Shown: piece after piece, positions 56-19,077 of the stretch
Layout: each line of letters starts with the position of its first letter
How positions within the stretch are numbered: the stretch's first letter is position 1
Virus record (IMG/VR): IMGVR_UViG_3300044695_001786
Location: 1 to 25,843 of that record
DNA from: a virus
Direction: 5' to 3' (one strand)
Length of the DNA: 25,843 nt
The notes under the pieces: generated by a model
The model's database searches: none
Seen by the model: only the letters and a program-made list of their open reading frames with translations
What the model was told of the DNA's origin: nothing
Program-made: the position numbers and the translations under genes

Positions 56-826
56 ATGAAAATCGAACGCATTAACGTGGCCGAGCTATCGCTTGACCCA
101 TCGAACGTCCGCAAGCACTCGCGTAAAAATCTCGACGCGATCAAGGCTTCGCTGCGTAAGTTCGGCCAACAAAAACCCATCGTCGTGGACGCCAAGGGCA
201 TCGTGCTTGCTGGCAACGGAACGCTCACGGCGGCGAAGGAACTCGGCTGGACGGAAATCGAGATCACGCGCACGACCCTTCAAGGAGTTGAGGCGACGGC
301 GTTTGCGATTGCGGACAATCGTAGCGCGGAGCTGGCGGAATGGGACGATTCTCTCGCCGATGTGTTAAAATCTCTCGCCGACGCAGGCCAGAGTCTTGAT
401 GATCTTGGTTTTGGCAAGACAGACCTCGACGATCTGCTACCTGAAACGCCAAGCGATAACTATACACAAAAAGTTGATGCTCCCGTTTACACGCCAAAGG
501 GTGAAAAGCCACCGATTGCCGAGCTATTCGACGCAACAAAAGCCGAAGACTTTTTATCAAAGATCGAGGCATCGAAGGCACCGGACGATGTAAAATCTTT
601 TCTAAAAAAAGCTGCATCTCGACACATCGTTTTCGACTACGGCAAGATTGCCGAATTCTACTGTCACGCAGACAAAGAAACGCAGTTGCTGATGGAGGAG
701 TCAGCCCTGATCATTATCGACTTCAACAAAGCCATGCAGTTGGGTTATGTGAAGTTCAAGACCGAGATAGACAGCACGTTTCAAAACGAACAAGAACACA
801 AATCCGATGATGACGACACCGAATAA
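56..826 (+). CDS. ParB-like nuclease-domain protein (phage type)
   Basis: This 256-residue protein begins with a ParB/sulfiredoxin-fold domain (about residues 3-110). The order is the usual one: a strand containing LDPSNVRKHS, a helix, then PIVVDAKGIVLAGNGTLTAA, where the GNGT block replaces the GERR motif of chromosomal ParB, and IADNRSAELAEWD. Phage proteins with this variant are often fused or adjacent to DNA methyltransferases or other base-modifying enzymes. Here no methyltransferase domain follows; the C-terminal half holds the segment MEESALIIIDFNKAMQLGYV and ends in an acidic tail (DDDDTE). The next gene overlaps it by 20 bases and encodes a putative DNA-modification glycosyltransferase, so a joint role in DNA modification or its recognition is inferred. 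The frame is open to the left edge of the window, so an upstream start is possible, but the ATG at 56 fits the family's usual N-terminus. No Shine-Dalgarno sequence precedes it. Confidence 0.8.
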   Translation: MKIERINVAELSLDPSNVRKHSRKNLDAIKASLRKFGQQKPIVVDAKGIVLAGNGTLTAAKELGWTEIEITRTTLQGVEATAFAIADNRSAELAEWDDSLADVLKSLADAGQSLDDLGFGKTDLDDLLPETPSDNYTQKVDAPVYTPKGEKPPIAELFDATKAEDFLSKIEASKAPDDVKSFLKKAASRHIVFDYGKIAEFYCHADKETQLLMEESALIIIDFNKAMQLGYVKFKTEIDSTFQNEQEHKSDDDDTE

Positions 827-1688
827 AAACTTTTGTGTTTTTATCATATCGCATGGACGACCGGACAAGATTGTTACGCTGGGCACGTTGCGTCGTTGCG
901 GTTACAGCGGCCCGCTTTTCATAGTTTGCGACAACGAGGATAAAACGCTCGATCAGTATCAAAAAAATCATGGCGTGGAAATGGTTCTTGTTTTCGACAA
1001 GTTGCATTACGCTTCACTGGTAGATTCATGCGACAATTTCCAGAATCGAAGAACGACGACTCACGCTCGCAACGCATGCTTTGATTTAGCCAAGGCGCGT
1101 GGTTTCGACTATTTCTTGGTACTCGATGACGACTACACTGGATTGCGAAACATTTATTTTTCAAACGGTACTTATGAGCGCCGACATATCGCTAACATAA
1201 AGCCAATCTTTTCGTTAATGATTGATTTTTTAGAGTCAGACAATCGCATTGACTCAATATGTTTTATTCAAGGTGGCGATTGTATTGGTGGGTGTCAAGA
1301 TATGGAAAAAAGAGGTTATCCATTTAGAAGGCGGAAAGCAATGAACTCTTTTTTCTGTAAAACATCGCGGCGATTTTGGTTCTTCAGTCGATTAAACGAA
1401 GATGTGAATACCTATCTCGACGCTGGCAAGCGCGGGCGCATATTTTTGTCATTGCCTCAAGTGCAGTTAGATCAAGCATTGACTCAAGCAACGAGCGGCG
1501 GAATGTCAGATGCGTATCTTGCAAGTGGAACCTACGTTAAAAGTTTTTATACGACGATGATTTGTCCTTCGTTCGCGAAGGTGACTACACCAACATCAAA
1601 TGCGGCGCGTAGAATCCGCAGAATCCATCATAAAATAAGTTGGAACAACGCCGTTCCAAAGATAATCGACGAACAGTTCCGAAAGTAA
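807..1688 (+). CDS. TET-associated-type glycosyltransferase (GT-A fold)
   Basis: This 293-residue protein resembles the phage glycosyltransferase family first noted next to TET/JBP dioxygenases, where it is thought to glycosylate hydroxymethylated bases in phage DNA. Visible signs are the N-terminal nucleotide-sugar strand VFIISHGRPDK (residues 11-21), a second strand FIVCDNED, the ARNACFDLAKARG helix (88-99), the metal-binding acidic run LDDDY (D107-D109), the block KAMNSFFC (177-184), NEDVNTY (197-203), GTYVKSFY (241-248) and the basic C-terminus RRIHHKISWN. Family length is similar, so it looks intact. It overlaps the ParB-domain gene by 20 bases, suggesting translational coupling. Codon use is clearly more AT-rich than in the neighbouring terminase genes, especially from about 1140, consistent with separate acquisition. 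Family assignment is from remembered motif patterns; the sugar, the target base and a DNA target at all are inference. Confidence 0.72.
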   Translation: MMTTPNKNFCVFIISHGRPDKIVTLGTLRRCGYSGPLFIVCDNEDKTLDQYQKNHGVEMVLVFDKLHYASLVDSCDNFQNRRTTTHARNACFDLAKARGFDYFLVLDDDYTGLRNIYFSNGTYERRHIANIKPIFSLMIDFLESDNRIDSICFIQGGDCIGGCQDMEKRGYPFRRRKAMNSFFCKTSRRFWFFSRLNEDVNTYLDAGKRGRIFLSLPQVQLDQALTQATSGGMSDAYLASGTYVKSFYTTMICPSFAKVTTPTSNAARRIRRIHHKISWNNAVPKIIDEQFRK

Positions 1689-1697
1689 TTTTACGGC

Positions 1698-2354
1698 ATG
1701 AATCCATCCGAGCCGAAAGATGTTTCAGAGATTCGCGCGCGACTTGCCAAAAAGAACGTCGAAAACATTGCCGTTAAACTGAAAGCCGGTAAAACGCTTT
1801 CATCGTCTGAGCGTAAGGCTTTGGTCGATTTGGGTGAAGTAGAATCTGGCGGATGGGTCAAAGACTTGAGCTCACTCGCCAAGGAACTCGGTCTGACGCG
1901 CCAAGCCGTGTACGACGCACGCGCTCGCTTTCCAGATGCGCCAAAGAAGCACGAGGACGGCAAGCGCGAGAACCTAGTTGCGTGGCAGCAATTCTGCGGC
2001 GACAATCTGATCGGTAAGGACACGGCGACGAAGAACCTTGCGGAGCTAAAGGCGCAACTCATGCAGCGCGAGATCACTCTGCGCGACATGAAGATTGCGC
2101 GCGAAGCGGGCGAGACGATTGCAAAGGAGATCGTGGACGATATGTTTGCCACGCTCGCTCAGAAACTCGACTTGCTCCTGCGCCTCAAACTAGAGGTCGA
2201 GCTGGGCCAGCGCATCATCGGCAAGAACGCAGCCGAGGCAAACGTCGAGGGCGCGCTAATCCTCGATGAAATCCGCGAGGTGATCAACGCGAACATCGCG
2301 CTTTATCAAAACGACATGGTGGCGCGGTCGGCAAACTCGGAGGTCAGCCAATGA
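1698..2354 (+). CDS. terS: Terminase small subunit
   Basis: This 218-residue protein is the likely DNA-recognition subunit of the packaging motor. A helix-turn-helix is visible at about residues 55-78 (LSSLAKELGLTRQAVYDARA), the form found in Nu1-like small terminases. It is followed by a long, charged helical region (residues 105-160) suited to oligomerisation. Nu1 of lambda is 181 residues, so the size is compatible. It sits two small genes upstream of the large subunit, as expected, although in lambda the two are adjacent. The start at 1698 is 9 bases after the preceding stop and has no Shine-Dalgarno sequence; the stop overlaps the next start. Which sequence it binds (cos or pac) cannot be seen. 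Confidence 0.8.
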   Translation: MNPSEPKDVSEIRARLAKKNVENIAVKLKAGKTLSSSERKALVDLGEVESGGWVKDLSSLAKELGLTRQAVYDARARFPDAPKKHEDGKRENLVAWQQFCGDNLIGKDTATKNLAELKAQLMQREITLRDMKIAREAGETIAKEIVDDMFATLAQKLDLLLRLKLEVELGQRIIGKNAAEANVEGALILDEIREVINANIALYQNDMVARSANSEVSQ

Positions 2355-2857: not shown

Positions 2858-3072
2858 CCGACACACCAAAGTTTCGCCTCGGCGACATGGTCTGGCACCG
2901 CACTTGCGGCGACGATGCGGGCGTCATCATTGCCATGATTTACCGCCCCAACTGCTTGCTCTACCAAGTGTCATGGGCTGGGCGTTGCGTCGATGACCAT
3001 TTCGAGATCGAGCTGACATCCGACCGACCTTTCTTTTCATCGAGTGGCGGAGCAACCAAAGACGAAGCATGA
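2854..3072 (+). CDS. Small conserved phage protein
   Basis: This 72-residue protein contains FRLGDMVWHRTCGDDAGV, then YRPNCLLYQVSWAGR and a conserved-looking DDHFEIEL. The pattern of short beta strands opening with a G-D-x-V turn suggests a small SH3-like barrel, and similar short proteins occur near phage terminase genes. It overlaps both neighbours by 4 bases (ATGA), so it is almost certainly co-translated with the large terminase gene. No enzymatic motif is present. The two cysteines are too far apart to suggest a zinc site. Function is unknown. Confidence 0.7.
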   Translation: MTDTPKFRLGDMVWHRTCGDDAGVIIAMIYRPNCLLYQVSWAGRCVDDHFEIELTSDRPFFSSSGGATKDEA

Positions 3073-4859
3073 CCGAAACCGAACGACGCCTTGCCGCCTT
3101 CAAGCTGCCCAAGCGTGACCGCTCGCCGATTTACGAGTGGGCACGCAAGCACATCGTGTTGCCCGAGAGCTACGCGACGTCAGGCCCATTTAACGTGCGC
3201 CTCTCGCCGTGGCTGATTCCGATCTTCGACGCGCTCCAAAACCCGCTCGTGCGCCGCGTGCATTTCCGCAAGGCGGTGCAGATCGGCGGCACGCTCGTCG
3301 CCGACGTGTGGGTGCCTTGGCTAATCTGTAACGACGCTGGCCCTATCTCGTGGACGATGCAGACCGACGAGATGATTGACCGCCACGCCAAGTCTCGGCT
3401 CAACCCAATCTTTGAAAGTTGCAAGCCGGTCGCCAAGATGCTGCCGCGCGCTGGCCCGATGAAGACGACGACCGAGATTTATTTCGGCGGTTTCTTTTTC
3501 ATCCTCAACCCCGCGAATCTTTCATCGCAGCAAAGCCAGTCCATCCGCTACAAGATCAACGACGAAATCTGGCTCCCAAAGTGGCAAGATGTTTATGGTC
3601 ATGCAGTTGCGCGCGTGTCTCGTTTCGAGGAAGTCGGTCGGTCAAAAATCTACAACACGTCACAAGCTCCGATAATGGACTTGGAAACCGGCAACGTCGA
3701 GGACACGTCTTTTCGTCAAGGCAATCAACAAGAGTGGAGCGCAGAATGTCCTTCGTGCACCAAGGTTCATCCAGTCGCGTTCACGCTCGAAAAGAACGAG
3801 GAGACAGGTCTGCGCGGTGGCGTCGTTTGGGACGCAGCGGCAAAGCGCGACGACGAGACGTGGGACGTGACGCGCGCCGTCGAGTCTTGCCGTTTCCGCT
3901 GTCCGCATTGCGGGCACGAGTCCACAGATTCAGACGCGACGCGCAATGCTTGGAAGCGCACCGGACGCTTCGTGGCAATGCGACCCGACGCGCCGATCGA
4001 GTTTCAGTCCTTCCGCGTCGAGGCTCTAGTGTCGCGGCCAATGCGTTTACTCGTCGAGGAGTTTTGCGCCGCCGATAATCATCACGTCAGGCAAGGCGAC
4101 GACAAGATGAAGATCGAGTTCAAGACCAAGCGCGAGGCGCGTCCGTGGATTGTCGAGAAAAAGGTCGTCAATCTATTCGTGCAGGCGTCCGACTACACCG
4201 TTTCGCAATTCTCGAATGGCGAACAGATCGAGGGCGAGGTGATTCGTTTCATGGCAATCGACCGTCAGCAAGACCATTGGTGGCTAGAGATTGGCGCGTT
4301 CAGCTCGGCGACCGGCCCGACGTACAAGCAACTTTATTTTGGGCGCATTGAGACGCGCGATCAGCTTCGTCAAATGCAGTATCGCTATAAGGTGCAGGAT
4401 TCGTGCGTGGCGCAGGACAGAGGCTATCGGCCCGCCGACGTTGATCGTGACTGCGCCGATTTCGGCTGGCGAGGCATGAGAGGACACGCGCGTAAGACGT
4501 GGACGATGCGCGACGAGAACACGAACGCGCTGATTAACTTTCCATTCAGCGAACCGCGCGTGAGCGACTACCGAGGCGGCGACGTGTTTTACTACGATTG
4601 GTCGGGCGATTACTTCAAAGACATCTTGGCGAACGCGCTCGAAAACAAAGGCGACCTAAAATGGCTCATGCCAGCAGACGTCAATCCGCTCTACCTTGAA
4701 CACCTCAAAGGCGAGTCGAAGGTCGAGATCAGGACGGGTGTCTGGGAATGGCGTGAGGTAAAGAGCAACGCGCCGAACCACGGACTCGACACCTCGGCCA
4801 TGATGCTTTGCATGGCGACGATTGCGAATGTGGTTCGCTACACGCCGCCGAAAGAGTAA
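3069..4859 (+). CDS. terL: Terminase large subunit (gpA family)
   Basis: This 596-residue protein is the packaging ATPase and nuclease; lambda gpA is 641 residues. The N-terminus (SPIYEWARKHIVLPE) and the block GPFNVRLSPW are typical of the gpA family. A divergent Walker A appears as RKAVQIGGT (residues 67-75), and a Walker B-type acidic pair in YKINDEIWLP (D165, E166). A zinc-binding insertion is formed by CPSC (C227, C230) and CRFRCPHCG (C274-C281). The nuclease half opens with FMAIDRQQDHWWLEIG (D398) and closes near GLDTSAMML. The protein would bind the small subunit, dock on the portal and cut the concatemer. The start overlaps the upstream stop by 4 bases. The gene is GC-rich, with strong third-position bias that creates spurious open frames on both strands. 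Confidence 0.95.
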   Translation: MTETERRLAAFKLPKRDRSPIYEWARKHIVLPESYATSGPFNVRLSPWLIPIFDALQNPLVRRVHFRKAVQIGGTLVADVWVPWLICNDAGPISWTMQTDEMIDRHAKSRLNPIFESCKPVAKMLPRAGPMKTTTEIYFGGFFFILNPANLSSQQSQSIRYKINDEIWLPKWQDVYGHAVARVSRFEEVGRSKIYNTSQAPIMDLETGNVEDTSFRQGNQQEWSAECPSCTKVHPVAFTLEKNEETGLRGGVVWDAAAKRDDETWDVTRAVESCRFRCPHCGHESTDSDATRNAWKRTGRFVAMRPDAPIEFQSFRVEALVSRPMRLLVEEFCAADNHHVRQGDDKMKIEFKTKREARPWIVEKKVVNLFVQASDYTVSQFSNGEQIEGEVIRFMAIDRQQDHWWLEIGAFSSATGPTYKQLYFGRIETRDQLRQMQYRYKVQDSCVAQDRGYRPADVDRDCADFGWRGMRGHARKTWTMRDENTNALINFPFSEPRVSDYRGGDVFYYDWSGDYFKDILANALENKGDLKWLMPADVNPLYLEHLKGESKVEIRTGVWEWREVKSNAPNHGLDTSAMMLCMATIANVVRYTPPKE

Positions 4860-5132: not shown

Positions 5133-7313
5133 ATGGAACACGAGAACTTCGACGCGTCAAAGCTAGTCAAAAATCAGCCGTGGCTCGACCGCGCGCTCGA
5201 AAACATTGCGCCACAGTGGGCGTTGAAGCGTCTGGAGGCTCGCGTGCAGAAATCGCTTTTCGAGTATAACGCCGCGCGCACTAATCGTCTTTACGCTCCG
5301 AAGCAATACGGACAACCAGCCGAGAGCACACAGAACCAGCGCGACCGCGTCGTCATGATGTGGGAGGCGCGCGACCTGATCGAGAACAGCCCAGAAGCGC
5401 GCGAGGTTTCGCGCAAGTTTGGTCTCTATCTCACGCCGCACGAATACTCGCCGACGACCGGCGACCGTGACTACAATCAGACGGTCAGCGATTACTTCCA
5501 CGAGTGGTGCAAGAACTGCGACGTTACCAATCGTCACACTTTCAAGAAACTCGTGCAGCTCGCCGCCGAGGAGCGTCCGGTGGACGGCGATTGCGGCTTC
5601 GTGATTCGTCGCGCGGGCGAAGGATTGAAACTGCAACTCGTTCCGGCGACGCGCATCGGAAATCCAAACAGCGCAGCGGTCGAGTCCAACAACTATTACC
5701 AAGGTATCATAACGGACGACTTCGGCCAGCCTATCGCATACCGCATTTACCGCGTAGATCGTAACGGCGTTTACTTTGGCGCAGAGGACATTCCAGCGAA
5801 TCAGTTCTGCCACTACTTCGACCCGTTCCGCGTCGATCAGTATCGAGGCATCACCGATTTCCACTCGGCGATTCAGACCGTGCGGATGCTTCACGACATT
5901 CTCCAAGCCGAGAAAGCGGGCGTTCGTTTCTCGTCGCAACAGGCCGCGCTGATCTTCAACGACCGAGGCGTTGCCAATCCGCGCAACCTTTTCCAGCCAA
6001 ATCCAGCCATGTCGCTGCCGAGCGGCCAGACGCAAAAGAACGAGCTGACCGAGGTGGGCATGATTCGCTATTTCCAAAACAGCGACCGCGTGGAAGTAAT
6101 GCCTTCGCGTCCATCGCAAGCGTTCACCGGTTTCGTGCAGCATCTCATCCACGAGATCGCCTTGGGGGTGGGCGTGCCCGAAGGCGTGCTTTTCGGAACG
6201 CAAGATTACAAAGGCCCAAGCGTGCGCGCCGAGTTTGCCGCCGCCGACCGTGTTTTCACGCGCCAGCAAGGCGTGCTTACTGACAAAGTTCTCGACCCGA
6301 TCAAAGACGCTGTGATTCTCGACGGCATCGCGCGCGGTGAAATTCCGCCTCCGACGCTGCTCGCGGGCGAGACGATGGTGCAAGCTCTGCGTCGCGCGAC
6401 TAAAGGCGAGTGGCGTTTCCCTGCGAAGCTCTCGATTGACGTTGGCCGCGAGTCCGCCGCGAACATGAACGAGAACCGCCAAGGCGCGAAATCACTGCAA
6501 GAAATCGCAGCCGAAGAAGGCACCGACGCTTTCTCGCGTTTGGAGCAAATCGCAATCGAGGCAGGTTTCATTAAAGAACTCTCGACGAAATACGGCGTGC
6601 CAGAAACGGCCATCCGCATGGTCACGCAACAGCTCCCTGCCAACGCTTCGATGGCCGCTTCGCTCGGTACGAACGTCACGCAAGATGCGGTTGATGCAAC
6701 GATTGCCGCAACGGCAAAGCCTGACGCGGCTGCGCCAGCCGAGCCTACGCAAAAAATCGAGAACGACTCCAAGCTCGTCACGATTGATTTCGAGACTAAC
6801 ACTTACATTCCGACGGTCGCCATCGCCGACAACGCCAAGCGCGCTCTTGAAGTGCGCGACAAGAAACCAGCCTCGCAACGCGGCATGACGAGCGTGGGCA
6901 TTGCTCGCGCGCGTGATCTGATGAATCGCCGCCCGCTTTCCGAGGAAACCGTGCGCCGCATGAAGGCGTACTTTGACCGTCACGAGTCCGACAAGAACGG
7001 CGAGACTTGGGACGAGCAAGGTAAGGGCTGGCAGGCGTATATGGGCTGGGGAGGAGACGAGGGTTATTCGTGGAGCACTGCTATCGTCGAGCGGCTAAAC
7101 AAGCAGGCGGACACTAAAGAACTCAAAGCAGCATCGAGCGAAGTGCGGCAAAGTTTTGCTGCGCTGCAACCACCGGAGCCAGAGGAGTGGCTAGACGCGG
7201 TTCAGAATTATCGGAAGAAACAAAATGGCCGCGTCGATGAAATCAAACAAAGCATCGTCGGAGAAAAATCCATCATCGAGTTAAGCAAGACGGTTAAAGC
7301 TGAAAACAAATAA
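5133..7313 (+). CDS. Portal protein (gpB family) with extra C-terminal domain
   Basis: This 726-residue protein forms the dodecameric DNA channel at one head vertex. The first about 480 residues follow the lambda gpB portal family: an N-terminal helix, WEARDLIENSPEAREVSRKF, GDCGFVIRR, LQLVPATRIGNPN, FDPFRVDQYRGITDF, and the wing/clip region GVPEGVLFGTQDYKGPSVRA. Lambda gpB has 533 residues, so this one is longer. After an alanine/proline-rich linker (about 525-545) comes a separate domain at about 580-650: GMTSVGIARARDLMNRRPLS, VRRMKAYFDRHESDK and AYMGWGGDEGYSWS. The same domain occurs in other phages on portals or head proteases; its role is unknown. A lysine-rich helical tail ends the protein. 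The A/C-rich leader (acacaaac) lacks a Shine-Dalgarno sequence. Confidence 0.93.
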   Translation: MEHENFDASKLVKNQPWLDRALENIAPQWALKRLEARVQKSLFEYNAARTNRLYAPKQYGQPAESTQNQRDRVVMMWEARDLIENSPEAREVSRKFGLYLTPHEYSPTTGDRDYNQTVSDYFHEWCKNCDVTNRHTFKKLVQLAAEERPVDGDCGFVIRRAGEGLKLQLVPATRIGNPNSAAVESNNYYQGIITDDFGQPIAYRIYRVDRNGVYFGAEDIPANQFCHYFDPFRVDQYRGITDFHSAIQTVRMLHDILQAEKAGVRFSSQQAALIFNDRGVANPRNLFQPNPAMSLPSGQTQKNELTEVGMIRYFQNSDRVEVMPSRPSQAFTGFVQHLIHEIALGVGVPEGVLFGTQDYKGPSVRAEFAAADRVFTRQQGVLTDKVLDPIKDAVILDGIARGEIPPPTLLAGETMVQALRRATKGEWRFPAKLSIDVGRESAANMNENRQGAKSLQEIAAEEGTDAFSRLEQIAIEAGFIKELSTKYGVPETAIRMVTQQLPANASMAASLGTNVTQDAVDATIAATAKPDAAAPAEPTQKIENDSKLVTIDFETNTYIPTVAIADNAKRALEVRDKKPASQRGMTSVGIARARDLMNRRPLSEETVRRMKAYFDRHESDKNGETWDEQGKGWQAYMGWGGDEGYSWSTAIVERLNKQADTKELKAASSEVRQSFAALQPPEPEEWLDAVQNYRKKQNGRVDEIKQSIVGEKSIIELSKTVKAENK

Positions 7314-7314
7314 C

Positions 7315-10300
7315 ATGATCCACACTCAGACTCAAATCGACAACCTCATCGAGCTGGCAATCATTCAGCGCGTCGAGCTAAAGAAGCTCGTCGAATCGCT
7401 GCCGGAACTCCGCACGCATCTCTCGGTGGAGATCGAGCGCAACTTAAACGAGATTGAACCAGCGATGCGCGATGAACTGCAAAAGTTCCTCTCGCAAGAA
7501 TCACAATCCGAGCACGCAAAGCTCGGCAACGTATTAAAGCAAAAGATCGCCGAGCTGTCCGTGCAACTCGAGGACACGACCGCTGCGAAGTATTCCGTGT
7601 TGATGGCCGAGCGCGCGGAGAATGAAACGCTTTTGGCTAAGGCCGAAGCACGCATCGCCGAGGCTGCATCTGCGCTGCCGAACGCGGTCAAAGAAATTGT
7701 CGCCGACGAACTCTCGCGCTTTCCTCGCGCGGGCGAAATTGACCAATTGCGAAAAGAGTTTGCCGAGCCGAAAGGTTTGAACCCGCGCGGCAAGTGGGAA
7801 TCTGGCGTTACTTATTACAAGCTCGATCTTGTCGCCTACAACGGCGACAGCTACGTTGCAAACGAGGAGACGACGCAAAAGCCTTCGCGTAATTCGACTA
7901 AGTGGACGCTGAACTCTGCGCGTGGTGCGGCTGGTAGTGGAAACAGTACGACGCTTGCCGAGCTGACCGGCTCACCTGCCAACGGTCAAATCCTGATCGG
8001 CAGCAATGGCGCGTTCGTAAACGCCGACATTACGGCGGGCGACGGTATCGCAATCTCGACGGCGGCCGGATTCATCGAAATCTCCGCCGACGGCGGAACG
8101 AATTACCAAGGCACTTGGGACGCGGCGACGAATAGCCCAACGCTCACGTCGAGCGTCGGCACCAAGGGTTATTACTACGTCGTCAACGTGGACGGCTCGA
8201 CGAACCTTAACGGCATTACCGACTGGAAGGTTGGCGACTGGGCGATCTACAACGGCACGATCTGGCAGAAGGTAGATAACAGCGAATCGGTCACTAGCGT
8301 ATTCGGTCGCGTTGGCTCGATCACCGCCGTCGCTGGCGATTACTCGGCCACGCAGATCACGAACACCGCGGCAGGTAGCATCACGGCGACGAACGTACAG
8401 GACGCGATCAACGAACTCGATGGTGAGAAATTGGCGAAGGCGTCGAACCTGAGCGACGTCGCCAGCGTCACGACTTCGCGCACCAATCTCGGCGTCACCG
8501 CCACCGGCGCAGATACGACTTACGCATACCGCGCGAACAATCTCAACGATCTCGCCAGCGTCACGTCGGCTCGCACAAATCTCGGTCTTGGCTCTGCCGC
8601 GGTGGAGAGCGCGACCTTTTTCCTGCAAGCCGCGAACTCGTTGAGCGACGTTGCATCCGTTGCGCTTGCTCGCACGAATCTCGGCTTGGGTAGCATCGCT
8701 ACTCAATCGGCTGGCAATGTCTCGATCACTGGCGGAAGCATCTCCGGCATTACAGACCTTGCCGTGGCAGATGGTGGCACTGGTGCCTCCACGCTGACTG
8801 GTTACGTTAAAGGCAGCGGAACGGCGGCTCTGACGGCATCTAGCACGATACCAAACACCGACATCACTGGTCTTGGTACAATGAGCACGCAGAACGCTGC
8901 AAGCGTCACCATCACTGGCGGCACGATCACCGGAATCACGGACTTGGCTATCGCTGACGGCGGCACCGGAGCATCTAACGCGACGGACGCGCGCACCAAT
9001 CTCGGACTCGGCTCTGCTGCGGTGGAGAGCGCGACCTACTTTCTCCAAGTCGCAAACAATCTCAGCGACGTCGCCTCGGTCGCTCTGGCCCGAACCAATC
9101 TTGGTCTTGGCAATTCCGCCACGCGCGACGTTGGCACGACCGCTGGCACCGTTGCGGCTGGCGACGACGCACGCTTTACCGACTCGCGCACTCCTACCGG
9201 CCCAGCTGGCGGCGATCTCACCGGCACCTATCCAAACCCAAGCCTGACGATCTCTGGCGTCACGGCTGGCGGCTATGGCAGCGCATCGAGCGCAGTCGTC
9301 ATCACGCTCGACTCGAAAGGTCGCGCGACGGCGGCATCGGCGGTAAACATTCTGATTGCTGAATCGCAAGTCACGAACCTCGTCACCGATCTGGCGTCGA
9401 AGATTCCGAGCACCGAGAAAGGCGCCAACTCTGGCGTCGCTACGCTCGACTCTGGCGGCAAGATTCCGCTCACACAGTTGCCCGATTCTATCCTCGGCCA
9501 AGTGACGTACATGGGAACGTGGAATGCTGCGACGAACTCGCCAACGCTAGCGAATCCTCCCGCGACGACGACCCTCGGCGATTACTACATTGTCACGACC
9601 GGCGGCACGTTTGCCTCGATCACGTTCAACGTCGGCGACTGGATTATCAGCAACGGCGCCGACGGCTGGGCGAAGGTGGACAACACGGACGCGGTCGCCT
9701 CGGTCTTCGGCCGCACCGGAACCGTGACCGCTACCAACGGCGACTACACCGCGAGCAACATCACGAACGTGCCAGCGGGCGGAATCGTCGCCACGGAAGT
9801 TCAGGCCGCGATCAACGAGCTGGACGGCGACAAACTAGCCAAGGCGTCGAATCTCTCCGACCTCGTTTCGCCTTCGACGGCGCGAACCAATCTCGGACTC
9901 GGCAGCGCAGCGACGCAGAACGACACTTATTTTCTGCAAGTCGCCAATAACCTCTCCGACTTGGCGAGCGTCACCACGGCCCGCAGCAATCTCGGACTCG
10001 GCACGATGGCGGTTCAGAACGCGGCGAGCGTTTCCATCACCGGCGGCAGCATCACCGGCATCACCGATCTAGCGGTTGCGGACGGCGGCACGGGCGTATC
10101 AACGACGCCCGCCAACGGTCAGCTCCTCATCGGTAACGGCACCGGCTACACGGTCGCAAACCTTACGGCTGGCACCGGCGTAACGATCACGAACTCGTCA
10201 GGCGGCATCTCGATTGCCACGACTGGCGCGCAATCGGCGGAGACGCTGACGGCCACGGTTACCAACGCCGAATCTACGACGATCACCAAAGGCCAAGTCG

Positions 10301-12564
10301 TTTATGCTTTCGGCGCGACTGGCAATCGCATGAGCGTAAAACTCGCGTATAATACGGGAGACGCGACCTCGGCGAAAACACTCGGAATCGTGAGCGACGC
10401 CAGTATCTCGGCTGGTGGAACCGGAACGATCACGCTCGTCGGCGTAGTCGATGGCCTGACGCTCGGAAGCTACACGGACGGCGACCAACTTTATCTCGGT
10501 GCGACGGCTGGCTCGCTAACGAACGTCAAGCCTTACGCTCCGAACCATCTCGTTTATGTCGGCATCGTCGAGCGCGCGAACAACGGCAACGGCGAACTCT
10601 ATGTGCGCGTTCAGAACGGCTATGAGCTGAACGAACTGCACGACGTGCAGATCACCACGCCGCCGTCTGCTGGCGCTCTGCTTGTTTATGACGCGACGAA
10701 CGCACTTTGGAAAGCTGCGCGGCTTACGGCTGGTACTAACATCGCCATCACGAACGCTGACGCATCGGTTACGGTGGGCATCACGGGAACCATCGCTGGC
10801 ACCTACGGCGGCACAGGCGTAAACAACGGCGCGAACACTCTCACGATTGCTGGCAACGTGACGCACGCGGGCGCGTTCACGCAGTCGTTTACTGCTACGG
10901 CTAACACGGCTCTGACGCTGCCTGTCACGGGCACGCTGGCGACCTTGGCTGGCTCGGAGGCGTTGAGCAATAAGACGATTACGGCGTCGTCGTTTAGCGG
11001 GTCGGTAACTGCAACGACGTTGAGCACGTCGGGAGACGCAGGAATTGGAACAGCTTCACCAACTCAAAGGTTACAAGTATCAAGCAGTGCTGGTTCAACT
11101 TATACGCTCATCACAAACACTGGAACAGGCCCAAGCAATTTGTTTTTGGGAGCGGCTAACGCCACAACGCAAATTATCTCTCGTGATGCCACGACAGGCG
11201 CGGTTCCGATTTCAGTTATTATTGGCACTACGGAGCGGGCAAATTTCTCCTCCACCGGACTCGCTGTTACTGGAACGTTGAGCGCGACGGGTGCCCTTTC
11301 GATTACTGCAACCGCAGCAAGTTCTATCTCGCGGACTCTAAGTGTGGGCGCACTAATTGCATCAGGAAATCTAAATGGCTTGGGTTTTGTGCCTAATTCC
11401 ACGGGCCTAAGTGCGGGTTACAATTATAGCGGAGGCGATGCGGAAACTAACGTTATTTTTGGCGCAAGTTCTTCTTCGCAGCAAATGCGTTTCCAACGCT
11501 GGGATGGCACCACTCTAACGAATGTTTTGACCCTTGTAGGCACAGGCAACGTCGGCATTGGTCTATCAACTCCGAGCTATCGCCTACAAGTCGGAGACGG
11601 CACTTCTACAAATTATGGCATTTGTTTTAATAAAGGTGCGGCGAATATAAATGACGCTGCAAACTTTGAGCAATTATTTAAACTAACACCAGATGCAAGC
11701 GGGTTTATGTATGCCAAGATAATTGGCGCACGAGACACATCATCTGCGTATAAATCATATCTCGGCTTTTTTACGGAAAGCAAAAGTTCCGGCACAACAG
11801 ATACATCAGCCGAGCGTATGCGCATCGACAGCAGCGGCAACGTCGGCATTGGGACTACGACAGGTCTGCTGGATGCAGTAAATCGCGTAACCGTTTCTGT
11901 TAATGGAACAAGTTCTAGTGCGCTTGCTTTTGGTGTGGCTGGAACCCGTCGCGCTCACATCTATGTGGATGGGAGTGAAATGGCAATCGCGGCTGGTCAA
12001 AGCGGTCAGTCACAGGTAATGACGTTTCAGGTCAACGGCTCCGAACGCGCCCGCATCGACAGCAGCGGTAATTTGCTGATTGGGACGACGACTACTAGCG
12101 GTAATGCTGGATTTCAGTTTTTACCAAACGCTGGCAGCGGATTCGTAGCATCTATTGACCATGTTACTGGAGTAGCATCGGGTGCATTTTACTATTCTTT
12201 TAACTATAACGGTTCGTCTATTGGTAACATTACACAAAGCGGAACGGCTGCTGTTTTATACAACACAACTTCCGATTATCGTCGTAAATTTAACGTCCAA
12301 GACCTTACTGGCAGCGGTACATTCATTGACTCTCTAAAACCTCGCACGTTTGATTGGGACACTGGCGACAAGGGTGTGGGCTTTATTGCTCACGAATTTG
12401 CCGAGGTTTGCCCATCTGCCGTCACTGGTGAAAAAGACGCCGTGGATAGCGACGGCAATCCGAAGTATCAGGGTATGCAAGCCAGCTCCGCTGAAGTCAT
12501 CGCAAATCTAGTTGCGGAGTTGCAGTCGCTTCGCCAACGTGTCGCCGCTCTCGAATCCAACTAA
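7315..12564 (+). CDS. Long tail-fibre protein with C-terminal S74 autocleaving chaperone
   Basis: This 1749-residue fibre-like protein begins with a coiled-coil-rich region (residues 1-150), then a carbohydrate-binding-like module (about 153-208: GKWESGVTYYKLDLVAYNGD, then a P-x(4)-W ending). A long Gly/Ser/Thr/Ala-rich shaft follows, with repeated RTNLG, ITGG and ADGGTG elements and two copies of a 130-residue unit. From about residue 1242 the shaft changes to GIGT-type repeats (AGIGTASPTQRLQV, NVGIGLSTPSYRLQV, two RIDSSGN blocks). The C-terminus is a Peptidase_S74 intramolecular chaperone: SDYRRK supplies the expected Ser-Lys dyad (S1653, K1658), followed by GVGFIAHEFAEVCP and a terminal coiled coil. 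Self-cleavage would release about 97 residues after trimerisation. Its place, between portal and head protease, is unusual; the product may nevertheless attach to the tail. Host binding is inferred. Confidence 0.9.
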   Translation: MIHTQTQIDNLIELAIIQRVELKKLVESLPELRTHLSVEIERNLNEIEPAMRDELQKFLSQESQSEHAKLGNVLKQKIAELSVQLEDTTAAKYSVLMAERAENETLLAKAEARIAEAASALPNAVKEIVADELSRFPRAGEIDQLRKEFAEPKGLNPRGKWESGVTYYKLDLVAYNGDSYVANEETTQKPSRNSTKWTLNSARGAAGSGNSTTLAELTGSPANGQILIGSNGAFVNADITAGDGIAISTAAGFIEISADGGTNYQGTWDAATNSPTLTSSVGTKGYYYVVNVDGSTNLNGITDWKVGDWAIYNGTIWQKVDNSESVTSVFGRVGSITAVAGDYSATQITNTAAGSITATNVQDAINELDGEKLAKASNLSDVASVTTSRTNLGVTATGADTTYAYRANNLNDLASVTSARTNLGLGSAAVESATFFLQAANSLSDVASVALARTNLGLGSIATQSAGNVSITGGSISGITDLAVADGGTGASTLTGYVKGSGTAALTASSTIPNTDITGLGTMSTQNAASVTITGGTITGITDLAIADGGTGASNATDARTNLGLGSAAVESATYFLQVANNLSDVASVALARTNLGLGNSATRDVGTTAGTVAAGDDARFTDSRTPTGPAGGDLTGTYPNPSLTISGVTAGGYGSASSAVVITLDSKGRATAASAVNILIAESQVTNLVTDLASKIPSTEKGANSGVATLDSGGKIPLTQLPDSILGQVTYMGTWNAATNSPTLANPPATTTLGDYYIVTTGGTFASITFNVGDWIISNGADGWAKVDNTDAVASVFGRTGTVTATNGDYTASNITNVPAGGIVATEVQAAINELDGDKLAKASNLSDLVSPSTARTNLGLGSAATQNDTYFLQVANNLSDLASVTTARSNLGLGTMAVQNAASVSITGGSITGITDLAVADGGTGVSTTPANGQLLIGNGTGYTVANLTAGTGVTITNSSGGISIATTGAQSAETLTATVTNAESTTITKGQVVYAFGATGNRMSVKLAYNTGDATSAKTLGIVSDASISAGGTGTITLVGVVDGLTLGSYTDGDQLYLGATAGSLTNVKPYAPNHLVYVGIVERANNGNGELYVRVQNGYELNELHDVQITTPPSAGALLVYDATNALWKAARLTAGTNIAITNADASVTVGITGTIAGTYGGTGVNNGANTLTIAGNVTHAGAFTQSFTATANTALTLPVTGTLATLAGSEALSNKTITASSFSGSVTATTLSTSGDAGIGTASPTQRLQVSSSAGSTYTLITNTGTGPSNLFLGAANATTQIISRDATTGAVPISVIIGTTERANFSSTGLAVTGTLSATGALSITATAASSISRTLSVGALIASGNLNGLGFVPNSTGLSAGYNYSGGDAETNVIFGASSSSQQMRFQRWDGTTLTNVLTLVGTGNVGIGLSTPSYRLQVGDGTSTNYGICFNKGAANINDAANFEQLFKLTPDASGFMYAKIIGARDTSSAYKSYLGFFTESKSSGTTDTSAERMRIDSSGNVGIGTTTGLLDAVNRVTVSVNGTSSSALAFGVAGTRRAHIYVDGSEMAIAAGQSGQSQVMTFQVNGSERARIDSSGNLLIGTTTTSGNAGFQFLPNAGSGFVASIDHVTGVASGAFYYSFNYNGSSIGNITQSGTAAVLYNTTSDYRRKFNVQDLTGSGTFIDSLKPRTFDWDTGDKGVGFIAHEFAEVCPSAVTGEKDAVDSDGNPKYQGMQASSAEVIANLVAELQSLRQRVAALESN
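8104..8493 (+). repeat. Fibre shaft repeat unit, copy 1 (390 bp)
   Basis: This stretch encodes 130 residues running from YQGTWDAATNSPTL through VGDW, FGRVGSITA, AINELDGEKLAKASNLSD to SRTNLG. A second unit of exactly the same length lies at 9508-9897. The two align without net gaps, and the second halves are the more alike, with AINELDG, KLAKASNLSD and RTNLG shared. The DNA has diverged at many third positions, so the duplication is old or the copies came from different sources. Confidence 0.85.
8722..8790 (+). repeat. ITGG...ADGGTG shaft motif, copy a
   Basis: This is the first of three 69-base coding repeats of the form (S/T)ITGG-x-I-x-GITDLA-(V/I)-ADGGTG-x-S. The others are at 8908-8976 and 10033-10101. 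Each follows an ARTNLGLG or RSNLGLG segment or its remnant. The motif is common in environmental phage fibres and probably forms a turn or transition between shaft segments. Confidence 0.85.
8908..8976 (+). repeat. ITGG...ADGGTG shaft motif, copy b
   Basis: This is the second copy of the 69-base coding repeat (TITGGTITGITDLAIADGG..). It is directly followed by a near-copy of the ARTNLGLGSAAVESAT segment. At the DNA level 9010-9114 resembles 8590-8695. Confidence 0.85.
9508..9897 (+). repeat. Fibre shaft repeat unit, copy 2 (390 bp)
   Basis: This is the partner of the unit at 8104-8493. It encodes YMGTWNAATNSPTL, a GDW motif, FGRTGTVTA, AINELDGDKLAKASNLSD and ARTNLG, again 130 residues. The block KLPLTQL-like segment just before it (KIPLTQLPDSILGQV) suggests that it begins a new shaft module. 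Confidence 0.85.
10033..10101 (+). repeat. ITGG...ADGGTG shaft motif, copy c
   Basis: This is the third copy of the 69-base coding repeat (SITGGSITGITDLAVADGG..), 1.06 kb after copy b. It closes the RTNLG-rich part of the shaft; after it the sequence becomes non-repetitive until the GIGT-type repeats. Confidence 0.85.
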
Positions 12565-17050: not shown

Positions 17051-18436
17051 ATGACGATCTCACTCTGCGTAATTTGTGGCAACGAGGCGCACCACATCGA
17101 GGCAATGCTTAACTCGTTCGTCGGACTGATCGACGAACTCTCACTCGTCCGCGCCATTGGCTCAAAGGAACCGGACGACACCGAGCGAATTGCGCGCGGG
17201 TGGTGCATCGACAATCGCGTCAATTTCGTTTTTAGCGAGTATCGGAACGGAGTCACGGCACAGGCTTGGAAGCACGTCGATTCGTTCGCCAAGGCGCGCA
17301 ATCAGGCTTTTGCATATGCGACCGGAGATTGGCTAGTCTGGGCGGACTGCGACGACGTTTTGGCACAAGCCGACGACCTCAAGAGCAAGCTCGCCGAACT
17401 CTCCGAGGAGGTGCTGATGGTGCGCTGTCCTTACGACGTGCGCGGCACCGGAAAGAAGCTGCAACGCGAGCGATTCATCCGTCGCAGCGCGTTTCAATCT
17501 GGCCGCGTCTGGCATCACGACGTACATGAAAACCTGCTACTTTTGCCCAACGACCGGCACGTTGAGTGGCCATCGCCGGTCTGGAGGCATGAGCCAGCCT
17601 GCATAAAACAAGATAACCGCAAGCGTAACCTTGCTATTCTAGGCCGCAGCGTAGGCGAAGCGGCGACCCAGTATTTTTATATCCACCAAGAGCACTACTG
17701 CGCCGGCAATAAACCAGCCGCTGAACAGTTTGGCCGCATCGCGCTATCGTTTCCGAACCTCGACGACTCTTTCCGGTACGAGGTTCAGCTTAACCTTGCG
17801 CGTATCTCAGCCAGTCGGCGCGAGTCGATGCAGTTCGCCATGGGCGCACACGGCGTCTTTCCGTGGTGCCGCGAAGCCATCGCCTCAATTATCATGCTGG
17901 CGTTTGAGAAGAACGACGGCAAGCGCGCGGCGTGGTGGGCGTCTCGGATGCTGACCTTGCCCGAACCGGCGCAGAAAGATCGTCCGTGGACGCACGAGGC
18001 GAAGTGGTACGGCTGGGCGGGGCATGATCTCGCCGCGCGTGCATATCGCTTGGCTGGCATGGTGGCGGACGCGAACGCGCTCCAACTGGTTTATCATAAG
18101 CACACCGAGCCGACCATCCGAATCACGCAAAAGACGCTCGGCAACTCGACGCGTTCTGTTTCATTCCGTGACGCTTGGTTATCAACTGCGGCACGGCCCG
18201 AGATCGTCGAGCATTACTTTCAAATCAAGGCCGACGACTCCGAGACGATGGCAATGGCGAAGCAGTTCCTGCATCACGTCGGCGAGCCTACTGAAACGCC
18301 TCGCGCCGTGATTCGCGTGAACGTCGAGGACGGCATGGTGCCGCCGAACAACTGGGACGAGCGCGTGCTGACGTGCGGAGAAACCGTCATCGACGCGGAG
18401 AACATCGAGCGAATCCTCGGAGCTAAAAAGCCATGA
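17051..18436 (+). CDS. Family 2-type glycosyltransferase with helical C-terminal region
   Basis: This 461-residue reading uses ATG 17051; an in-frame TTG at 17027 is also open. The first about 200 residues form a GT-A glycosyltransferase: the start MTISLCVICGNEAHHIEAML, a variable mid strand, FAKARNQAFAYATGDWLVWA and the metal-binding ADCDD (D99-D102), then the typical RCPYDV and VWHHDVHENLLL (acceptor side). The remaining part is helical and TPR-like (ATQYFYIHQEHYCAGNKPAA and following), as in several bacterial enzymes that modify proteins or surface glycans. It lies just behind the capsid terminator and 4 bases upstream of overlap with the next glycosyltransferase. Targets could be virion proteins or host glycans; a DNA target is less likely because the family differs from the gene at 807. 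Confidence 0.82.
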   Translation: MTISLCVICGNEAHHIEAMLNSFVGLIDELSLVRAIGSKEPDDTERIARGWCIDNRVNFVFSEYRNGVTAQAWKHVDSFAKARNQAFAYATGDWLVWADCDDVLAQADDLKSKLAELSEEVLMVRCPYDVRGTGKKLQRERFIRRSAFQSGRVWHHDVHENLLLLPNDRHVEWPSPVWRHEPACIKQDNRKRNLAILGRSVGEAATQYFYIHQEHYCAGNKPAAEQFGRIALSFPNLDDSFRYEVQLNLARISASRRESMQFAMGAHGVFPWCREAIASIIMLAFEKNDGKRAAWWASRMLTLPEPAQKDRPWTHEAKWYGWAGHDLAARAYRLAGMVADANALQLVYHKHTEPTIRITQKTLGNSTRSVSFRDAWLSTAARPEIVEHYFQIKADDSETMAMAKQFLHHVGEPTETPRAVIRVNVEDGMVPPNNWDERVLTCGETVIDAENIERILGAKKP

Positions 18437-19077
18437 TTCCAGAACCAGCCATCGTCGTCTGCACGAAGAACGCGCGTTGCCTTGACGTGATGAGAGCGTC
18501 GATCAAAGCCTACGTTCCGCACGGCATTCGCACCTACGTTTCGCACGGACTCGGCCCGACCTTCGGCGAGGCTTACAACGAGGCGGCGCGCATCGCGTTC
18601 AAGGAGCATGACCAACTCGTGATCTGCAACGACGACATCGTGTTCACGCCGACGACATGGGCGAAGCTCATGGGCGACGTGAAATTACTTCGTAAACATT
18701 ATCCAGACCTCGGCTGGGTGGCGACTCGCTCGGACTACGCGCGCGGCGAACAGAACATCCGCAGCGGACGCGGGCAAATTGACTTCCTGCGGTTCGCGTC
18801 GGAGCGAAACATCGTACAAGCAAGCGTCATTGCGCCAATCTGCGCGTGGATTCACCGCGACGCATGGGTAGATTTTCCTCCGCTCAACTGGTTCTCCGAC
18901 GACGTGCAATGCCTCGACATGAAGCGACCGCATTTTATCTCGCGCGCCTACGTTCACCACGTCGGAAGCCAGACCTGCGGAAACGACGCGCAAAAGTGCA
19001 TGGACGATGCCGAGCCTTGGCTGCGCGAGAACCGGCCCGAGTTGCACGCTCGGTGGTATTTAACGAAAGGCGCATAA
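18433..19077 (+). CDS. Second GT-A glycosyltransferase
   Basis: This 214-residue protein has a compact GT-A core: IVVCTKNARCLDVMRASIKA at the start, GLGPTFGEAYNEAARIAFKE, then LVICNDDIVFTPTTW, where NDD is the metal-binding motif, and later the acceptor-side segments APICAWIHRDAW, WFSDDVQCLD and AYVHHVGSQT. The size is that of a minimal glycosyltransferase with no extra domain. It overlaps the preceding glycosyltransferase by 4 bases, so the two probably act on the same glycan in sequence. GGAG 11 bases before the start may be a weak Shine-Dalgarno sequence. Substrate unknown. Confidence 0.78.
   Translation: MIPEPAIVVCTKNARCLDVMRASIKAYVPHGIRTYVSHGLGPTFGEAYNEAARIAFKEHDQLVICNDDIVFTPTTWAKLMGDVKLLRKHYPDLGWVATRSDYARGEQNIRSGRGQIDFLRFASERNIVQASVIAPICAWIHRDAWVDFPPLNWFSDDVQCLDMKRPHFISRAYVHHVGSQTCGNDAQKCMDDAEPWLRENRPELHARWYLTKGA

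Follow-up and report, generated by a model that had tools for sequence, protein, structure and literature searches.

Paired phage genes for a TET-associated glycosyltransferase and a ParB-type partner with a constant C-terminal domain

An association of TET-associated glycosyltransferases (TAGTs), ParB and DNA modification is said to have been proposed already by Iyer et al. in 2013. The TAGT of phage T6 adds a second glucose to glucosyl-hmC on DNA, and the alpha-glucosyltransferase (alpha-GT) of T4 binds the gp45 clamp, clamp binding not being the main determinant of the glucosylation level there (PMC13216743). Of 753 phage genomes, 288 encode a TAGT while having neither an alpha- nor a beta-glucosyltransferase, and the function of such TAGTs is 'yet to be defined' (PMC13216743; 2026). 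The locus described here provides a testable frame for them, made up of a constant partner domain, two putative delivery modes, variable candidate donor genes and, among the families tested, no source of a hydroxymethyl base. Our literature search, partial in its coverage, found no published account of the constant partner domain, of an exchange between ParB and clamp parts or of inserted donor genes.

The gene pair and its constant domain

The DNA analysed, hereafter the window, spans 25,843 bp and is the entire virus record, so that the record offers no sequence before position 1. Two plus-strand ORFs that a preliminary description of this DNA had reported ahead of the packaging genes, overlapping by 20 bases, were located at positions 56–826 and 807–1688, with genes for the terminase large subunit (TerL) and the portal protein downstream. 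The same description had read the 807–1688 product (293 aa) as a TET-associated-type glycosyltransferase, which was confirmed by its match to PF20691 (E=4.7e-31; 108.7 bits, above the curated cut-off of 27.5) and to phrog_842 (E=6e-62). Its AF2 model (pLDDT 88.4, pTM 0.88) has a GT-A fold, and the matches of this model in a PDB fold search were GT-A folds; sequence searches of the PDB returned no matches. The alignment of relatives revealed catalytic motifs intact throughout, including the DDD catalytic metal site at residues 107–109 (positions 1125–1133; D108 and D109 in 75/75 rows), the NEDVNTY motif at residues 197–203 (positions 1395–1415; N197 and D199 in 75/75 rows) and an HH pair at residues 274–275 (positions 1626–1631; 74/75 rows).

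The gene behind the TAGT (1698–2354, plus strand) probably encodes the small terminase subunit, as judged by its position and a weak HTH match (HTH_29, E=0.056), and homologues of its product come after the TAGT in many relatives. It is followed on the same strand by genes for a gpA-type TerL (3069–4859; PF05876, E=2.8e-24) and a lambda-family portal protein (5133–7313; PF05136, E=4.2e-43). A search of the window for a promoter-like pattern gave no match. Further downstream, between the portal and the capsid genes, comes a 1749-aa fibre-like ORF (7315–12564) whose product has a Peptidase_S74 chaperone domain (PF13884) at its C-terminus. Tail fibres are not usually encoded at this point; a related ORF is similarly placed in contig L021. 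A second glycosyltransferase gene (GT2, PF00535; 17027–18436) and a further, unassigned ORF whose sequence likewise suggests a glycosyltransferase (18433–19077) are found between the capsid and tail genes.

The product of 56–826 (256 aa) matched phrog_620 with E=4.8e-45 and, by profile, ParB/Noc structures (7nfu, 6e-11); a fold search also gave ParB/Noc, and the claimed coupling of the TAGT to a ParB-type protein was thereby borne out. The match to PF02195 (E=0.0013, 19.2 bits) lies under the Pfam cut-off of 26.3, and that to TIGR00180 is likewise under its cut-off. The AF2 model of the partner has a mean pLDDT of 88.0 and a pTM of 0.56. Its ParB_N-type domain comprises about residues 1–130 (positions 56–445), in which the GxxR site reads GNGT; this site carries R in 54 of 61 relatives with a ParB_N domain and T in 6. 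The replacement of R by T may alter ParB function, and CTP-driven sliding appears doubtful for the window's own subclade, to judge by this residue. The C-terminal part of the protein is occupied, in place of ParB's own C-terminal part, by a domain of about 100 aa (about residues 136–231, positions 461–748), for which Pfam holds no model and for which AF2 predicts a helical fold at high confidence. Its invariant residues include Y145, R189, H190, A199, Y202, E214 and D222.

This TAGT-partner domain precedes the TAGT on the same strand in every relative open to judgement. Overlap of the two genes, seen in the window at positions 807–826, is shared by 109 of 122 non-redundant pairs; 2 pairs lie within 6 nt, and putative donor-synthesis genes split the remaining 11. 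Such an arrangement is far beyond chance, and the 20-nt overlap suggests translational coupling of partner and TAGT. When the partner domain rather than the TAGT served as query, the TAGT was directly behind it in 68 of 80 contigs and behind one or two inserted genes in the other 12. No natural fusion of partner and TAGT was present among the cassettes examined. The constant partner of the TAGT is this helical C-terminal domain and not ParB: ParB is absent from 28 cassettes that retain the C-terminal domain, and was therefore rejected for that role. The pairing of ParB with the TAGT put forward in the preliminary description thus holds as coupling to a ParB-type protein, but its constant element is the C-terminal domain, and the ParB part is replaceable.

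Exchangeable front parts, companions and inserted genes

Within the 122 non-redundant cassettes, a ParB_N domain stands ahead of the constant domain in 92 partners, the window's own among them. The ParB-less partners number 30, two of which are broken ORFs; the 28 usable ones are about 130–150 aa long, and most start with MKQ-x-x-LF (for example MKQINLFG, MKQTNLFG and MKQFDLFG). Strict QxxLF was found in 20/30 ParB-less partners versus 1/92 ParB partners and 3/879 neighbouring proteins, and four further ParB-less partners carry QxNMF. Chance occurrence of MKQxxLF was ruled out by this background, since the 3 hits in 879 neighbouring proteins refer to the first 40 aa and none falls within the first 10. 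The start sequence fits the published beta-clamp-binding consensus of the Q-x-x-[LM]-F type (PMC11139829), Q, L and F being constant and the remaining positions variable, so that we infer a sliding-clamp-binding motif in the ParB-less partners of these relatives. Contig L124 has two such sequences: QQDLF, carried by the partner, and QSSLF, with which the TAGT ends.

Parsimony places 4 changes of the clamp type on the TAGT tree, which has 122 rows, and well-supported branches force at least 2. A single origin of the clamp type is accordingly not favoured, and as far as this tree can tell the swap between ParB and clamp front parts happened more than once. The two types also differ in their surroundings. 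Terminase genes are near 76/92 ParB-type cassettes, in keeping with the coupling to terminase genes claimed earlier, and replication genes are near 8/92, whereas clamp-type cassettes have replication genes nearby in 19/28 cases and terminase genes in 5/28. The Fisher p-values for this contrast (about 6e-10 and 1e-9) overstate the evidence because related sequences were counted as independent, and the repeated switch on the TAGT tree is the better argument.

The company kept by ParB_N itself was surveyed in 79 contigs found via this domain alone. An amino-methylase-type motif was present in the same protein in 53 of them; in others the next gene encoded Mom (PF25680), TET/JBP (PF12851), a C5-methylase, a PAPS reductase or a diverged TAGT, and TET adjoins ParB in phage Nigel and in contig L194. 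Judged by these neighbours, ParB_N appears to accompany DNA-modifying enzymes in general, which is the main ground for supposing that the TAGT acts on DNA. PADLOC reported no defence system besides the methylase-linked ParB domain. Two of the contigs (L198 and L204) carry a PAPS-reductase-family gene downstream of the ParB_N-type gene, perhaps representing a sulfur-based DNA modification.

Genes inserted between partner and TAGT form a further variable element. A histidine-phosphatase/cytidylyltransferase-like fusion gene occupies this place in 11 contigs (L113, L118, L119, L125, L134, L139, L152, L159, L165, L167 and L171); the one representative scanned matched PF00300 and PF01467, and its nearest phage family is heptose-1-phosphate adenylyltransferase. 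In L124 (2646–6388), CofD/HAD and NTP-transferase genes separate a clamp-type partner from the TAGT. The genes inserted in these 12 cassettes look like makers of an activated sugar or polyol, and the donor may therefore vary between phages.

The acceptor of the sugar

The preliminary description had seen no methylase or dioxygenase in the window, and profile searches agreed, finding no TET/JBP, C5-methylase or thymidylate-synthase family gene in these 25.8 kb, a fragment without a left flank. TET/JBP (PF12851) was then sought in whole records comprising 50 records with the window included, 8 named phages and 16 contigs. None of these 74 TAGT-bearing phage records gave a match above the cut-off (a single 10-bit match was at chance level), a count to be read with many of the contigs being fragments and with PF12851 being able to miss diverged oxygenases. 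The positive controls, mycobacteriophage Nigel (4e-8, itself below the curated cut-off) and L194, were both detected. The thymidylate-synthase (ThyA) family was found in 0/54 records and a C5-methylase in 2/54 (L013 and L153, in both unlinked to the pair), the other 52 having none. The complete genomes of Lactobacillus phages c5 and phi jlb1, haloarchaeal virus HHTV-2 and Nocardia phage NTR1 carry the pair but none of these enzymes, and the same is true of a Porphyromonas prophage record and a partial E. coli Rac-type record. In a sister contig of 85% identity (L005), the left flank measures about 9 kb and encodes RecT-like, DUF3799 nuclease and RusA proteins and one enzyme of Methyltransf_24 type; neither a TET nor a C5-methylase is among its genes. 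The earlier suggestion that an oxidase or methylase lies further left is consequently disfavoured, the sister contig and the relatives being negative apart from the two unlinked C5-methylases. The other option raised in the preliminary description, a base made in some other way by a less-known system, may still apply.

We propose, at a probability of roughly one half, that the two genes form a two-component glycosyl-transfer module in which the partner tethers the TAGT to phage DNA and the sugar goes most likely onto DNA. The TAGT, with its GT-A fold and DxD site, would transfer a sugar from an activated donor; the partner would grip it through the constant helical C-terminal domain, presumably in a complex, and its exchangeable front part would bring the enzyme to phage DNA. 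Where the cassette belongs to the packaging module, as it does in the window, delivery would fall to the ParB-type domain; where it belongs to the replication module, delivery would fall to a peptide predicted to bind the sliding clamp, for which the gp45 binding of the T4 alpha-GT is a precedent. The sugar would then most likely be placed on phage DNA around replication or packaging, where it might protect against nucleases. The observations themselves are the pairing, the two partner types with their differing gene surroundings, the conservation of the catalytic motifs and the absence of the tested routes to a hydroxymethyl base. The last of these counts against the proposal, since most records yielded no enzyme that would make a hydroxymethyl base as acceptor on DNA. 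A bolder version, which we advance only tentatively and consider rather improbable, is a widespread DNA glycosylation that dispenses with a pre-made hydroxymethyl base: ordinary DNA would be the substrate of the TAGT and the partner domain, or the latter would itself generate the acceptor, with delivery by ParB at packaging or by the clamp at replication.

The main rival places the sugar on a protein, be it the partner, the terminase, the capsid or a host protein, the front parts serving only to localise the enzyme. The hydroxymethyl-base source missing from nearly all records is what this reading would expect, several of the PDB fold matches are protein glycosyltransferases, and GREB1, which contains a TAGT domain (PMC6163654), reportedly adds O-GlcNAc to protein (PMC12645433, citing Shin et al. 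2021). We nevertheless hold a protein acceptor to be possible but unlikely, given that ParB_N is otherwise found with DNA-modifying enzymes, that the clamp-type front part suggests DNA, and that the TAGT of T6 works on DNA (PMC13216743).

The classic route, in which an oxidase, methylase or hydroxymethylase encoded elsewhere in the genome prepares hmC or hmU for glycosylation by the TAGT, is improbable. The counts of 0/74 for TET and 0/54 for the ThyA family, which cover the complete genomes of c5, phi jlb1, HHTV-2 and NTR1, and the 9 kb to the left in the sister contig outweigh, in our judgement, the family name and the T6 precedent, the missing left flank of the window, the C5-methylase in two relatives and the TET genes beside ParB in Nigel and L194.

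A minor rival, and a very improbable one, has the TAGT glycosylate nucleotides or DNA ends, that is, a free 3'-OH left by terminase or present in precursors, for which no hydroxymethyl base is needed. The cassette adjoins terminase genes and lies beside the cos end in phage c5, and the top PDB fold match of the TAGT is AvpGT (9jn3; E=5.5e-5), a nucleoside 3'-O-glucosyltransferase (PMC11959488); a TM-score of about 0.46 and 16% identity, however, make this match a lead only, and capping of 3' ends would harm replication where clamp-type cassettes accompany replication genes. A ParB-type partition pair with an incidental glycosyltransferase, to which only the resemblance of ParB_N to ParB/Noc points, is extremely unlikely, as ParB is lost from 28 cassettes that retain the C-terminal domain and the TAGT, another domain replaces the C-terminal part of ParB, and the overlap with the TAGT gene is conserved.

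Intact copies of the cassette occur both in Rac prophages of E. coli and in Lactobacillus phage c5, which brings the acceptor, DNA or protein, within reach of routine tools. The gene order of Rac-type prophages runs trkG, ynaK (ParB type), TAGT (annotated 'GREB1-related protein'), small and large terminase, and at least 80% of the 3-kb cassette is present in 835 of 5,426 complete E. coli genomes. In the K-12-derived strain MC4100 (locus L257, 4001–4604), ynaK is shortened to 264 bp and continues into ydaY, and the TAGT, terminase and head genes that intact Rac prophages carry between ynaK and ydaY are gone; K-12 ynaK is therefore best read, from this gene order, as a remnant of a partner/TAGT cassette. 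In strain HE302, ynaK is annotated as broken and the TAGT is intact. A scan of genome contigs yielded only 3 loci, and the closest match in a cellular genome (L088, JAJTDU010000061.1; 66% identity), on a contig of a Verrucomicrobiaceae MAG, hints at the group to which the host of the window's phage belongs. Modification of DNA that needs no hydroxymethylation would amount to a new type of DNA modification and of anti-restriction; if protein is modified, the label 'TET-associated' misleads the annotation of many phage genomes.

Comparison with known systems

The TAGT of T6 and T2 (beta-glucosyl-HMC-alpha-glucosyltransferase) belongs to the same Pfam family, PF20691, and has the same GT-A fold as that of the window, but the records tested here are without the hydroxymethylase family. 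The TAGT of the T4-like Aeromonas phage 65 shares 26% identity with that of the window and, unlike it, has no dedicated partner alongside. Vertebrate GREB1 shares the TAGT domain family (PMC6163654), and NCBI calls the E. coli Rac homologue 'GREB1-related protein'; the reported acceptor of GREB1 is protein, and GREB1 is not known to have a ParB or clamp partner. The T4 alpha-glucosyltransferase resembles the putative clamp-type cassettes in being a clamp-guided DNA glycosyltransferase. It differs in its GT-B fold, its direct clamp contact and its hmC substrate, whereas the clamp-like motif of the relatives sits mostly on the partner.

Two further systems share the ParB side of the pair. Phage proteins in which ParB-N is fused to a DNA methylase (phrog_498, PADLOC MTase_II) contain the same ParB_N-type domain but no TAGT-partner domain, and their methylase is part of the same protein, whereas the window encodes a separate glycosyltransferase. 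Hypermodification of the Nigel type, based on TET/JBP, resembles the window in that a ParB-type gene overlaps a modification gene, the two occupying the same position ahead of the terminase. The order in Nigel is ParB, TET, P-loop nucleotide kinase and terminase, without a TAGT, and its ParB is without the TAGT-partner domain; where Nigel has a TET, the window has none and carries a TAGT.
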